From an uncultured Flavobacteriaceae bacterium (GTDB lineage Bacteria; Bacteroidota; Bacteroidia; Flavobacteriales; Flavobacteriaceae), in contig CALSUE010000001.1 in the NCBI GenBank assembly GCA_943789455.1, positions 760,001 through 824,000 on the forward strand: a stretch of 64,000 nucleotides of DNA, in the 5' to 3' direction. This document shows, in pieces, positions 15,645-22,823 of the stretch (its first letter is position 1; every line of letters begins with the position of its first letter). The notes beneath the pieces are model-generated. The model was not told the DNA's origin. It was given only the letters and a program-made list of their open reading frames with translations, and searched no databases. Position numbers and translations under genes: made by a program.

Positions 15645-15703
15645 GTTATGCATTTAACAACTTAAAATAATTGTATTTTCACACCCTTAAACCTTTAATA
15701 ATT

Positions 15704-16615
15704 ATGAAAAAAAATATTTTTAAAATTACAAGCTTAATTGCTTTAGTCTTATTTATCTCTTTAACTAGTTGTGACAATGCACCTTCTTCTGTTGAAGTAG
15801 AAAAAAAACCGATAACTAAATTAAAAATTACCACGCCTCAACCTAGCCCAAAAGCAACAGTAGAGCAACGAGTTGGTCTAACAGATATATCAGTAGAATA
15901 TTCTAGACCAGGTGTAAAAGGAAGAGCTATTTTTGGAGATCTAGTTCCTTTTGGTAAAACATGGAGAACGGGTGCTAATTCTAATACCAAAGTTACCTTT
16001 AGTTCTGATGTTTCTATTGACGGCCAAACACTAAAAGCAGGTTCTTATGGGCTGTATACTGTTCCAAACGAAAATTCTTGGGAAATCATGTTCTATGCTG
16101 AGTCTGATAATAGCGGAGTTCCTAGAGATTGGGACGATACCAAGGTTGTTGCAAAGACTAGTGTAGAAGTATACTCAATGCCAATGAATGTTGAGACATT
16201 TACCATTACTTTTGACGATGTTTCTGGTACTTCAGCAACATTAGGGATTCTTTGGGAAAAAACATATGTTGGTATAAAGCTTGAAGTTCCAACAGATAAA
16301 TTGGTTTCTGAAACTATAGATGCAGTTATGGCTGCAAGCCCTGAAGCTGGAGATTATTATAATGCCGCTATCTATTATAGACAACAAGACTTAGACATCA
16401 AAAAAGCAAATGAATGGATGGAAAAAGCAATGTCTTTGACTGAAAAGCCTGCATTTTGGCAATTGAGACAACAGTCTTTAATTTATGCAAAAATGGGTGA
16501 AACAGAAAAGGCGATAGCAGTTGCTGAAAAATCTCTAGAACTTTCAAAAGCAGCTGGAAATGAAGCTTATGTAAAAATGAATACGCAATCACTTGCTGAA
16601 TGGAAAACCGAATAG
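15704..16615 (+). CDS. DUF2911 domain lipoprotein with C-terminal TPR-like region
   Basis: The protein starts MKKNIFKITSLIALVLF and has a lipobox ending LTSC, so it is probably an outer- or periplasm-facing lipoprotein. The DUF2911 domain follows (about residues 40-190: PSPKATVEQRVG, DISVEYSRPGVKGR, FGKTWRTGANSNT). The last 90 residues contain helical repeats resembling TPRs. The ORF track begins at 15671, but the leader defines the ATG at 15704. Function is unknown for the family. It converges on the GNAT gene with a shared hairpin terminator. Confidence 0.85.
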   Translation: MKKNIFKITSLIALVLFISLTSCDNAPSSVEVEKKPITKLKITTPQPSPKATVEQRVGLTDISVEYSRPGVKGRAIFGDLVPFGKTWRTGANSNTKVTFSSDVSIDGQTLKAGSYGLYTVPNENSWEIMFYAESDNSGVPRDWDDTKVVAKTSVEVYSMPMNVETFTITFDDVSGTSATLGILWEKTYVGIKLEVPTDKLVSETIDAVMAASPEAGDYYNAAIYYRQQDLDIKKANEWMEKAMSLTEKPAFWQLRQQSLIYAKMGETEKAIAVAEKSLELSKAAGNEAYVKMNTQSLAEWKTE

Positions 16616-17144: not shown

Positions 17145-18125
17145 TTAGTAGTTTAAATTAATTTTTTTTCTAATGAGGTCTAATGTTGCTATTAAATCCT
17201 TTGAAAAAGAAAAACTCATAAGATCACTTTCTTTTTTATGATCTCTAAGCAATTGATTAAAATGTTCAATTTCAAAATTGTAGCCAAAAGTTTTAGCAGA
17301 AAAATCTACATGTTCTTCACTTCCATTTTGTAGTAAAGTAATTGTTGTTGGTTGGTGAAACATAGTGTTAATTTTAATGACTCCGTGCTCGCAAGTAAAA
17401 ATAGCTTCAGTAGGTGTTTTCTTCAAAAAGGTACTTTTCAAAATTGCTTTGGAATTATCATAATTAAAAATCATTTCACAAGATGAATCTGCGCCATTAG
17501 TGAAAAAAGTTGCATCAGCTTCTATAGATTTAGGAATTCCTAATGTGGATAAGGCAAGAAACACAGGGTAAATCCCAATATCTAATAAACTCCCTCCTCC
17601 TAATTCCTTTTTTAACACTCTACTATCTAAACCATGTGTAGATTTAAACCCAAAATCAGCCTCTAAACAAAGTACTTTACCAAAAGTCTTATTTTTTAAA
17701 AAGTTTATTAGGTATTGATAATGTGGTAAAAAAGTTGTCCAAAGTGCCTCCATGATTAAAGTATTCTCTCTTTTCGACACACTAATCATTTCCTCAACCT
17801 CCTCCAAATTCATTGCAAAGGGTTTTTCACATAAAACAGCCTTTTTATGCTGCAAACAAAGAATAGCATGCTCTTTATGGAAACTATGGGGCGTTGCGAT
17901 GTAAATAGCATCTACTAAGGGATCTTTAACAAGTAACTCATAAGAACCATAACTAACAGGAACATGAAATTGATTTGCAAAGGAAGAGGCCTTTTGAGGG
18001 CTTCTTGAAGCAACTGAATATAACTTAGCTCCATGAACAGAAGCTATATCTTGAGCAAATTTTTGGGCTATATGACCTAATCCTAATATTCCCCAACGAA
18101 TGATTTTAGTTTCTAGTTTGCTCAT
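17145..18125 (-). CDS. Gfo/Idh/MocA family oxidoreductase
   Basis: An NAD(P)-dependent sugar or polyol dehydrogenase-like protein of 326 aa. The Rossmann motif GILGLGHIAQKFAQDI is at the N-terminus and the conserved EKP motif appears as CEKPFAMN near residue 100. The C-terminal alpha/beta domain has GGGSLLDIGIYPVFLA, as in the dimeric dihydrodiol dehydrogenase/glucose-fructose oxidoreductase branch. It follows the symporter gene by 32 nt, and its substrate may be what the symporter imports, although this is only inferred from context. Confidence 0.87.
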   Translation of the reverse strand: MSKLETKIIRWGILGLGHIAQKFAQDIASVHGAKLYSVASRSPQKASSFANQFHVPVSYGSYELLVKDPLVDAIYIATPHSFHKEHAILCLQHKKAVLCEKPFAMNLEEVEEMISVSKRENTLIMEALWTTFLPHYQYLINFLKNKTFGKVLCLEADFGFKSTHGLDSRVLKKELGGGSLLDIGIYPVFLALSTLGIPKSIEADATFFTNGADSSCEMIFNYDNSKAILKSTFLKKTPTEAIFTCEHGVIKINTMFHQPTTITLLQNGSEEHVDFSAKTFGYNFEIEHFNQLLRDHKKESDLMSFSFSKDLIATLDLIRKKINLNY

Positions 18126-18157: not shown

Positions 18158-20032
18158 TTATAGTATGGATGGTTTTTTTTCAATACTCAGTATCCCTGTC
18201 AATAAAAATAAAAACATTAAAACTAATACATGATAAAGAGTTAAACCTAAGTAAACAGCATCATAAGTTGTTTTTATAAAAGCAATAGATATTAACATTA
18301 AGGTTATTTTAATCTTCAATTGATTTTGTGTAAAACTATGCATTAAAGCAATATAAATAACCAATATACATCCAACAAAATTAAGCCATAGATAACTGAT
18401 CACAGGAGCTAAACCAAGTTCTTCAGGTTGATAAATTCCAAAATAATAAATCAATAAAATAATAATCTCAGTAATAATTGCAGCAATAAAAACAGCATTC
18501 CCCTGAACTCTTTTGAAAAAGAATGCTAGTAAAAAGATACCCAAAACATTTCCATAAAAAAGAGATCCAATAATATTAACCAATTGAATTAAATTATCAA
18601 ATAAGTCTGCAATACAGGCAATTATAATTGCTAAAATACCCCAAGCTAAAGTTAGCCATTTTGAAGCTTTTACATAATGAGACTCATCTCTTCCGATAGC
18701 TAAATTTCTTTTGTACACATCAATAGTTGTAGTAGAGGCTAAAGAATTTAACTCTGAAGCTGTAGATGACATAGCAGCAGCTAAAATAACTGCCAATAAC
18801 AATCCAATAATACCTTTAGGAAGGTTATTTACGATAAAATGAATAAATACATAATCTTTATCATTTTCTTCAATTTTCTCATCTGAAGCTTTATCTACTT
18901 TTTTAATGATAGTTTTTGCTTGATTCTTTAAAATTTTATCCTGTTCGTTAAGTGCTATGATAATGGCTCTCTCAGAATCTTGTATCCCGTCTAAAAGAAG
19001 TGTTTTCTTTTGAGTTTCTATATCAGTATGTTGTTTTTCTAATGCTTTAAATTCTTCGTAATATTTAGAACTAATAACTGCCTCATTTGCTTTAGGGTTA
19101 AAATTTAGTGGAGATGCATTAAATTGATAAAATACAAATACCATAACTCCTGTAAGCAATATAAAAAACTGCATAGGAACTTTTAACAATCCATTAAACA
19201 ACAAACCTAACTGGCTTTCCCTGAGAGACTTTCCTGATAGATATCTTTGTACCTGACTTTGGTCTGTTCCAAAATAAGATAGCATCAAAAATGTACCCCC
19301 TAAAAATCCTGTCCAAATGGTATATTTCTTATCTAAGTCAAATGAAAAGTCTAATACTTTCATTTTATCACTTGCTCCTGCTATATCTAGTGCTTTTGAA
19401 AATGTTATTCCATCTGGCATATAGTACATAATTAAAGTAAAAGCAGTAACCATCCCTAAAAATATAATAATCATTTGCTGTTTTTGTGTGACATTCACAG
19501 CCTTTGTTCCTCCAGAAACTGTATAAAAAATGACCAATAAACCTATGATAATATTTAGAGCAATTAAATCCCAACCAAGAACATAAGATAAAATAATTGC
19601 AGGTGCATAAATGGTAATTCCTGCAGCTAATCCACGTTGAATTAAAAACAAAAAAGCGGTAAGCGATCTTGTTTTTAAATCAAACCGGGTCTCCAGGTAT
19701 TCATAGGCTGTATACACATTTAATTTGTAATAAATTGGAATAAAAACAAGGCATATAATAACCATGGCTATCGGAAGACCAAAATAGAACTGAACAAAGC
19801 CCATTCCATCATGGAAAGCCTGACCTGGAGTCGATAAAAAAGTAATGGCACTAGCTTGAGTAGCCATCACAGACAACCCTATGGTCCACCATTTAGTATC
19901 TTTTCCTCCTTTGATATAATCCTCCACGCCATTATTCATCTTTCGGGTCTTATAGACTCCATAAAGAACTATGAATAGTAAAGTTGAGAGTAAAACTAAC
20001 CAATCTAATAGATGTAAACTTGAAACTCCCAT
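18158..20032 (-). CDS. sodium:solute symporter family protein (SSS/SLC5)
   Basis: This 624-aa inner-membrane transporter has about 14 hydrophobic segments of the LeuT-like SSS fold. It begins LLDWLVLLSTLLFIVLYG and has the family segment TQASAITFLSTPGQAFHDGMGF. Between helices at about residues 305-400 lies a charged coiled-coil-like insert rich in Lys, Glu and Asp, a form I recall in Flavobacteriia symporters. The ligand is unknown; sugars, sialic acid or other small organic solutes are all possible. A 32-aa membrane microprotein gene ends 2 nt before its ATG. Confidence 0.9.
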   Translation of the reverse strand: MGVSSLHLLDWLVLLSTLLFIVLYGVYKTRKMNNGVEDYIKGGKDTKWWTIGLSVMATQASAITFLSTPGQAFHDGMGFVQFYFGLPIAMVIICLVFIPIYYKLNVYTAYEYLETRFDLKTRSLTAFLFLIQRGLAAGITIYAPAIILSYVLGWDLIALNIIIGLLVIFYTVSGGTKAVNVTQKQQMIIIFLGMVTAFTLIMYYMPDGITFSKALDIAGASDKMKVLDFSFDLDKKYTIWTGFLGGTFLMLSYFGTDQSQVQRYLSGKSLRESQLGLLFNGLLKVPMQFFILLTGVMVFVFYQFNASPLNFNPKANEAVISSKYYEEFKALEKQHTDIETQKKTLLLDGIQDSERAIIIALNEQDKILKNQAKTIIKKVDKASDEKIEENDKDYVFIHFIVNNLPKGIIGLLLAVILAAAMSSTASELNSLASTTTIDVYKRNLAIGRDESHYVKASKWLTLAWGILAIIIACIADLFDNLIQLVNIIGSLFYGNVLGIFLLAFFFKRVQGNAVFIAAIITEIIILLIYYFGIYQPEELGLAPVISYLWLNFVGCILVIYIALMHSFTQNQLKIKITLMLISIAFIKTTYDAVYLGLTLYHVLVLMFLFLLTGILSIEKKPSIL

Positions 20033-20034
20033 AA

Positions 20035-20133
20035 CTAACTAGCAAAAGATTTTGTTATTAAGTAAAAAACAATAATGTAAATAACATTAACAATTAGAAC
20101 AATTGAGTAAATTTTTTTCCAATGTTGTTTCAT
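20035..20133 (-). CDS. 32-aa single-span membrane microprotein
   Basis: An ORF too short for the track encodes MKQHWKKIYSIVLIVNVIYI followed by more hydrophobic residues and a short ITKSFAS tail. It has a basic N-terminus, then one strongly hydrophobic stretch of about 18 residues, typical of a small single-span protein with its N-terminus inside. It starts 11 nt after the PIG-L stop and ends (TAG) 2 nt before the symporter ATG, a spacing that suggests translational coupling. From memory, similar short ORFs precede SSS genes in other Flavobacteriia. A role as a symporter accessory subunit is inference. Confidence 0.68.
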   Translation of the reverse strand: MKQHWKKIYSIVLIVNVIYIIVFYLITKSFAS

Positions 20134-20144
20134 ATTTTTTATAA

Positions 20145-22667
20145 TTATTTTTCTAATTGATTTTGTTGCTGAATATTGGTTTGCCCAATAGATAAAATAT
20201 TTGCAAATAATTTATAAGCTCCCGAGACTCCTGCGGGTAATTCTCTAAAAAAACTTAATCCAGTATATATGTAGTTCCCTTTTCCATATTTAGCAATCAG
20301 TAAGCTTCCTTTTTTAGGTTTTTCTCCCCAATCATTCATTGATAAAATTGGAATATATTCAGAACTCCAAGAGTTTGGAAAATACAAACCTCTTTCTTGA
20401 ACCCAACCCTTAAAGTCTTGTTCAGATATCTTATTTGGAAAATTCATAACAGCATGATTTTTTTCTAGAATCTCTACTTTAGCATTTTCATCTGTAACTC
20501 TGTCTCTAGAAAGGTTTAATTTAAAAGGTGCAGCTACATCCACGCTCCTACTTGTATTGTATTGTACAACCATATTTCCACCATTTTTTACATACTCGAG
20601 TAAAAATTTTTGTTTGTATTTTAAAATAGGTATAGTATTGTATGCTCTAATTCCTAATACAATTGCATCAAATTTTCTCAAATGCTCGTTGGTAATATCT
20701 TCCGGATTAATCATAACTACACTATAACCAATCTGTTTTAAACTTTCAGGAACTAAATCTCCAGCACCTTTAATATAACCAATAAAATTTCCTGCTTTTT
20801 TAATATTTAAACGAACAGCTTTTGCCTCAGATTTTTTTAATACTGTTTGTTTAGGAATATGATCATATTTAATTTCTATTAGTTCTTTATCAAACTTTTT
20901 ACCATCTACTAAAACACTTGCCTTTATAACTCCTTCAGAGTCATTAATAGTTGGAGTTATTTTAAATGGGTATGTTTGAGTGTCTCCTTTTTGTTTTATT
21001 TCTATTTCAATGAAGGTTGGGGTAACTTTCCATTCCTCAGGAACGTCTAGGAATAACTTCCCTTTGATGTTATTAGCTCCTGAACGCACACCTACATTGA
21101 CTATCTGTTCATTAGCGTCTGAAAAAAGTAATACCTTATCATTCAGTTTTGTAGTTACCAAGGGTACTATTTCAAACGGATCATACAATTCACCTTGATC
21201 TCTTTTAGAGTATCTATGTATAATATTTTTTTTAATAGTAAGTTGAGTGGTATCTATTAATAAATTAAAAAACACAACTGCTTTTCTGGGTGTTTCAGGC
21301 TTACCTATTAAAGTTCTTTTATTTACATTATACATCCCTAAAGAACCCTCTGTTTGGAGCCAATACGGATCTGAGTAACTTAATTTTTCTAAATTTATGG
21401 TTTTTTTAAATTGTTGTTTAATATTATTTTCTAGCAATATATCATAGCTAATATTTTCAGTTTTTTCAGTTTTATAACCAATTGATTCTAAAAAAATTGG
21501 TATTTCTGCATTTCTGTTTAAAACTTCAATAGCTACCTCTACCATGTCATTGGGAACTGCACTTGAACTTTCTGACGAAGCTTCTAAATACAATCCTGCA
21601 CATGCTTCAATAATCTGAATGATTTGTTTTTCTTTGATATCTCTCCAATGTTTATCCTCCAAAGATTGAATTTTTTTGTAAGCAAGTATTAGGTCTTTTA
21701 GATGTTTTGCAGGATTCTCAAAGTCAAAATTCTTTTCAATATCATATAAAATTGAACCAATATCTCCTCCATTTTTTACTCTATTCCAAGTGGTATTTAT
21801 GCCTGAAAAAATATCATTAGTATCTTTTGGTTTATCCCCTCTTAAAAATTCTATGTATTCATTTTGGCTACCTCTAGTTGTTAATCTTCCAAATCCTTGA
21901 CATAAATGTTGACTACTAGCCAAAGAAGCTACTTCATTATTAGATAAACCTTTTAAAGGATAGAAAACTCCTACATCAACAGAGGTTAACTTTCCCTCTG
22001 TAGCTTTTTTAAATTCATCTTCAGACTTATAGAACCAAGACGATGTATTAAAAAACAACCGCTTAGGCTGCCATGTTTCGGTATATTTTAGTTGATTTGA
22101 AAACTTTGATGGATCATTTACTAAATCAAAAGCTTCTACACTTAACATTGCAGATGAAGTGTGATGTCCATGAGTTGTCCCCGGAGTTCTGTGATCAAAT
22201 CTATTAATGATAACATCGGGCTTAAAGGTTCTAATGGCCCAAACTACGTCACTTAAAACCTTTTCTTCATCCCATATCTTTAACGTTTCGTCAGGATGTT
22301 TAGAATAGCCAAAATCATTAGCTCTTGAAAATAATTGTTCACCACCGTCTACGCTTCGAGCAGCCAAAAGTTCTTGGGTTCTAATTACCCCTAATAATTC
22401 TCTAATTTCTGACCCTATTAAGTTTTGCCCACCGTCACCTCGAGTTAATGACAAATAACCTGTTCTTGCTTTAACGTGATTAGACAAATAGGAAATTAAG
22501 CGTGTATTTTCATCATCGGGATGAGCTGCTACATACAAAGCTGTTCCTAAAAAATTTAATTTTTGAATTTTTTCGAAAATTTGATTTGACGATAATTTTT
22601 CAGGTTTTTGAGAAAAAACAGAAATAGTGACTAGTAAAAATGAAAGAATTGTTACTATTTTTTTCAT
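20145..22667 (-). CDS. PIG-L family deacetylase, large exported form
   Basis: The protein begins with a signal peptide (MKKIVTILSFLLVTISVFSQ, cleavage near FSQ). The zinc-binding LmbE/PIG-L domain follows, with AHPDDE at residues 48-53, GDGGQN and THGHHTSSA, which carries the third metal His. A long middle beta-rich region and a C-terminal region like a class I amidotransferase/ThuA fold (AIVLGIRAYN) bring it to about 840 aa, far longer than the simple 230-aa enzymes. It should remove N-acetyl groups from an amino-sugar-like compound in the periplasm. The track start at 22733 lies upstream of the TACATTTG promoter box; the start at 22667 fits both leader and promoter. Confidence 0.88.
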   Translation of the reverse strand: MKKIVTILSFLLVTISVFSQKPEKLSSNQIFEKIQKLNFLGTALYVAAHPDDENTRLISYLSNHVKARTGYLSLTRGDGGQNLIGSEIRELLGVIRTQELLAARSVDGGEQLFSRANDFGYSKHPDETLKIWDEEKVLSDVVWAIRTFKPDVIINRFDHRTPGTTHGHHTSSAMLSVEAFDLVNDPSKFSNQLKYTETWQPKRLFFNTSSWFYKSEDEFKKATEGKLTSVDVGVFYPLKGLSNNEVASLASSQHLCQGFGRLTTRGSQNEYIEFLRGDKPKDTNDIFSGINTTWNRVKNGGDIGSILYDIEKNFDFENPAKHLKDLILAYKKIQSLEDKHWRDIKEKQIIQIIEACAGLYLEASSESSSAVPNDMVEVAIEVLNRNAEIPIFLESIGYKTEKTENISYDILLENNIKQQFKKTINLEKLSYSDPYWLQTEGSLGMYNVNKRTLIGKPETPRKAVVFFNLLIDTTQLTIKKNIIHRYSKRDQGELYDPFEIVPLVTTKLNDKVLLFSDANEQIVNVGVRSGANNIKGKLFLDVPEEWKVTPTFIEIEIKQKGDTQTYPFKITPTINDSEGVIKASVLVDGKKFDKELIEIKYDHIPKQTVLKKSEAKAVRLNIKKAGNFIGYIKGAGDLVPESLKQIGYSVVMINPEDITNEHLRKFDAIVLGIRAYNTIPILKYKQKFLLEYVKNGGNMVVQYNTSRSVDVAAPFKLNLSRDRVTDENAKVEILEKNHAVMNFPNKISEQDFKGWVQERGLYFPNSWSSEYIPILSMNDWGEKPKKGSLLIAKYGKGNYIYTGLSFFRELPAGVSGAYKLFANILSIGQTNIQQQNQLEK

Positions 22668-22691
22668 TACATAAGGTGGTTTGGATAGTAA

Positions 22692-22699
22692 CAAATGTA
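22692..22699 (-). promoter_or_regulatory. candidate -7 element for the PIG-L operon
   Basis: The minus strand reads TACATTTG, a perfect TAnnTTTG, 25 nt before the ATG at 22667. It lies inside the N-terminal extension of the track ORF and so favours the shorter protein. Confidence 0.5.
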
Positions 22700-22823
22700 A
22701 TATTTTAAATTTTCTCATAAAATAACCAATCATTTTTTTAATCGGTTTAAAAATGTAGTGATTTGGTCTATATTTTTAAGTAAAAAAACTATCAACAATA
22801 CAGCTAAAATGTTGATAACAAAA

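Follow-up and report, generated by a model that had tools for sequence, protein, structure and literature searches.

Gene order around a 32-codon reading frame

The window, by which is meant the whole 64,000-nucleotide stretch of Flavobacteriaceae DNA that was analysed, carries on its minus strand (20133..20035) a 32-codon open reading frame translated as MKQHWKKIYSIVLIVNVIYIIVFYLITKSFAS, a microprotein lying between genes for a PIG-L deacetylase and a sodium:solute symporter (SSS). A first-pass annotation had located the frame correctly, with gaps of 11 nt and 2 nt to its neighbours, leaving its strand unstated; the plus strand has no such ORF at 20035-20133. In transcription order the genes are PIG-L (22733..20145), 11 nt, the microprotein, 2 nt, SSS (20032..18158), a Gfo/Idh/MocA oxidoreductase and a GNAT protein. 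The features discussed below are:

20145..22733, minus strand: large PIG-L deacetylase, probably carrying a signal peptide; its cluster recurs in 73/80 loci
20134..20144, minus strand: A-rich spacer of 11 nt between PIG-L and the microprotein, with A at -3
20035..20133, minus strand: microprotein of 32 aa, MKQHWKKIYSIVLIVNVIYIIVFYLITKSFAS, an ORF with a single predicted span
20033..20034, minus strand: spacer of 2 nt between the microprotein and SSS
18158..20032, minus strand: sodium:solute symporter of 624 aa, with profile matches to TIGR00813 and PF00474
19355..19363, minus strand: symporter residues 224-226 of the outer TM5-TM6 loop, suggestively the top coevolving partner of the microprotein C-terminal end
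17145..18125, minus strand: Gfo/Idh/MocA oxidoreductase, a frequent downstream neighbour (27/80 loci)

The symporter gene product belongs to the SSS family, scoring 238.6 bits against TIGR00813 (cut-off 184) and 138.5 bits against PF00474, and appears to consist of a 13-TM core followed by a C-terminal hydrophobic extension. This extension (18158-18330, minus strand) amounts to some 55-60 extra residues with hydrophobic stretches; most orthologues are about 565 aa long, and the symporter of one other locus, L108, also has it. Upstream, the PIG-L frame as listed probably begins 22 codons too far 5' (22667-22733, minus strand), the true start likely lying at about 22667, where the signal peptide starts at MKKIVTILSFLL. 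A lipoprotein-like gene (cluster 2) faces the operon from the plus strand at 15671-16615 and is kept nearby in 54/80 loci.

The microprotein itself is predicted to lie with its basic N-terminus inside and its C-terminus outside. An A at -3 of the start codon, found in 65% of 109 homologues, promotes initiation in Flavobacterium (PMC6847099).

Conservation of the microprotein across Bacteroidota

Among the 59 relatives that were searched, most genomes of the same genus have a homologue, and at 30/30 fetched loci the microprotein lies immediately 5' of the SSS orthologue, with a gap of about -1 to 12 nt; a PIG-L match lies 5' of it at only 22/30. Profile A1, built from 21 members, finds a match in 325/400 family genomes and 199/237 genera, usually one per genome. 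Among SSS orthologues from named species (Polaribacter, Tenacibaculum, Aquimarina, Maribacter, Winogradskyella, Flavobacterium, Zobellia and others), all 80 that were fetched have a microprotein directly upstream; its start codon is ATG in 79 and probably GTG in the remaining locus, L150. Of these named-species loci, 55/79 have a gap of 1 or 3 nt before SSS and 77/79 one between -5 and 15 nt, and in other families a 4-nt overlap of the two genes is frequent; this spacing, 1-3 nt apart or overlapping by 4 nt, suggests coupled translation. With a microprotein present at 343/363 SSS loci, the ORF is a real gene, far beyond chance.

The first-pass annotation had tentatively assigned the microprotein to Flavobacteriia, and its conservation beside SSS there is borne out, but the range proves much wider, extending across Bacteroidota. 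An SSS match is present in 99/198 genomes of the class, and 80/95 usable class-wide SSS loci have a microprotein, often overlapping SSS by 4 nt; a frame-wise search was needed for 14 of these 80, mostly for want of a recognisable ATG start. The class-wide microprotein profile, A4, recovers the microprotein in 75/198 genomes across the phylum. At the phylum-level loci that were read and that had, or were expected to have, an SSS match, it stands directly before SSS in 38/39 (at L399 just the beginning of an SSS gene is visible), and the adjacent symporters are as little as 37% identical to that of the window.

The microprotein is under purifying selection. Estimates of dN/dS are about 0.14 for the closest pair, 0.21 over 52 independent pairs that are partly saturated, and 0.34 (CI 0.28-0.39) over 47 pairs picked for low pS, a choice that biases the value upward. 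The first-pass annotation had staked its proposal on a short ORF being kept at this place in related genomes and on dN/dS departing from 1, and it withstands both comparisons. Across 343 sequences, conservation in the profile columns reaches 99% for Y20, 97% for W16 and 90% for F34, and the conserved W, Y, N, Y, F, T and F recur at a 100° periodicity (p<2e-4), that is, on a single face of one helix.

The symporter as the probable partner of the microprotein

Several lines of evidence bear on which gene the microprotein tracks. The genome of the window has about nine SSS genes, and the microprotein is found at just this one; it was not found beside any of six distant SSS paralogues elsewhere. 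Twelve of the 20 family genomes without a profile match also have neither the SSS orthologue nor PIG-L, and in seven of the other eight a diverged microprotein, missed by the profile, precedes SSS. The microprotein gene is thus coupled to a single SSS clade and is co-lost with that SSS. In every one of the 12 family genomes that lack the SSS orthologue, this PIG-L is missing too, a joint absence that points to one pathway; taken with PIG-L being the usual neighbour, it suggests that SSS imports the product of a probably exported deacetylase.

The explanation that best fits these observations, and the one we consider probable, is that the microprotein is a translated, trans-acting, single-span accessory subunit of one SSS clade across Bacteroidota, stoichiometric with the symporter and stabilising or activating it. 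An accessory-subunit role had been put forward in the first-pass annotation; a conserved, small single-span protein specifically linked to one SSS clade is now strongly supported, and the role itself is read from genome context, the conserved helix face and weak coevolution. Three other explanations deserve attention. The microprotein could be a quality-control adaptor or inhibitor that sends SSS to proteolysis or damps it, as with MgtR acting on MgtB/MgtA; such roles are known for small single-span proteins (PMC10710835), and loss of the microprotein in some lineages would fit, but co-translation from the same operon at a fixed spacing is better suited to a stoichiometric subunit than to a conditional inhibitor, and we regard this alternative as unlikely. 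The losses concern SSS-bearing genomes in which the microprotein was not detected anywhere (G123, six f24 genomes, G643, G466 and G612), so that it is not absolutely required. Natural losses are visible at L088 (in genome G123), L282 and L283, where SSS lies immediately 3' of PIG-L in a genome with no detectable microprotein; such loci lend themselves to comparison.

Alternatively, the microprotein could serve the PIG-L deacetylase and not SSS, as an accessory or a membrane anchor, given that PIG-L is the usual gene upstream of it (73/80 loci) and that in genomes G561 and G570, where SSS has been relocated, it stays behind PIG-L. Four tested genomes of family f93, however, have the microprotein and SSS (adjacent in three, 15 kb apart in one) and no PIG-L match, which identifies SSS and not PIG-L as the common partner; in eight same-genus genomes, and likewise at Tenacibaculum loci, PIG-L is located elsewhere and the microprotein remains with SSS. 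A partnership with PIG-L in place of SSS is accordingly quite improbable. It is more improbable still that the frame is a cis-acting leader ORF encoding a functionless peptide, whose translation does no more than couple or regulate that of the SSS mRNA: the gap of 1-3 nt or 4-nt overlap at nearly all loci is what such a leader would show, but the amino-acid sequence is kept on a single helix face phylum-wide, and retention of the microprotein out of cis position, behind PIG-L in G561 and G570 and about 15 kb from SSS in G728, argues for a trans-acting product.

Physical contact between the microprotein and SSS was approached by structure prediction and by coevolution. In an AlphaFold model of a natural in-frame read-through fusion (3-nt spacer) the microprotein helix has a pLDDT of only about 55, so a placement on SSS cannot be claimed. 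Mean-field coevolution over 331 pairs ranks microprotein column 38 with SSS residue 226 first (z 10.8), above every listed within-SSS pair, followed by 37-224 and 37-226 and including 34-80 and 19-278. The real scores exceed those of 12 shuffles, and the ten best pairs match an N-in helix in membrane depth (p=0.006, on a depth scale taken from the assumed topology). A null model simulated on the tree proved miscalibrated (mean z 1.6) and was applied solely after double centring. A matched control between the microprotein and PIG-L (N=201) gave coevolution as strong, 7.1 vs 5.8, and coevolution was therefore dropped as proof of contact with SSS; it is suggestive only. A plain co-change count was set aside as swamped by rare columns, and an extra fused SSS helix in lineages without the microprotein was also checked and rejected.

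For the accessory subunit, a mechanism can be outlined. The microprotein would be translated and its helix inserted N-in/C-out, and the conserved helix face may then pack on the symporter, probably on its TM2/TM6-TM7 side with the outer end near the TM5-TM6 loop, thereby stabilising or activating SSS. Coupled translation would yield the microprotein and SSS at a fixed ratio, and the pair probably acts in concert with the exported PIG-L deacetylase, the product of which SSS would import.

Relation to known small transporter partners

Among the small proteins whose genes adjoin bacterial SSS genes are YjcH/DUF485 with ActP, YhdT/DUF997 with PanF, DUF4212 and DUF3311, which are about 60-100 aa long with two spans, as against one here. 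The present system resembles them in having a small membrane protein gene immediately 5' of the SSS gene; the microprotein members have no profile match to DUF485, DUF997, DUF4212, DUF3311 or the small accessory proteins of NCBIfam. Searches of Pfam and NCBIfam with the window microprotein, 8 diverse members and 46 members of A4 returned no family match; scores for TIGR03745/DUF2976 fell below the cut-off and were taken as chance hydrophobic matches. In the papers that were searched, no report on the gene was found. The microprotein is a new protein family, probably among small transporter partners, themselves a known kind. To the latter belong MgtS, MgtR, MgtU and AcrZ, single-span transporter regulators on a scale of 31-49 aa (PMC10710835), which the microprotein resembles in size and in its single helix; unlike it, they serve other transporter classes, and no sequence relation was found.

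A phylum-wide family for which neither Pfam nor NCBIfam has a model is thereby added, and its breadth together with its absence from curated libraries makes it worth pursuing. Expression work on these Bacteroidota symporters should co-include the microprotein. The family also makes it possible to study in a clean bacterial setting why SSS/SLC5 transporters require single-span partners, a question still posed by SGLT2-MAP17.

MAP17 is larger than the microprotein and has an orientation opposite to that predicted here. A single-span protein also known as PDZK1IP1, it partners human SGLT2 (SLC5A2, an SSS member), packing on TM13, which together with the bundle domain moves little, and aiding stability and surface expression (PMC10803289, PMC10203128). 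In function this pair is the closest precedent for the microprotein. The likeness proposed here is that one single-span protein is paired with an SSS transporter. It does not extend to sequence, since profile A1 matched nothing up to E=10 among all PDB chains, those of MAP17 included, and in place of MAP17 there is a bacterial, co-operonic peptide of about 31-55 aa. It is conceivable, and we advance it as a tentative proposal, that one SSS clade is phylum-wide a two-polypeptide transporter in which the separate microprotein supplies an extra helix docked on the bundle domain, making it an uncatalogued prokaryotic counterpart of SGLT2-MAP17.
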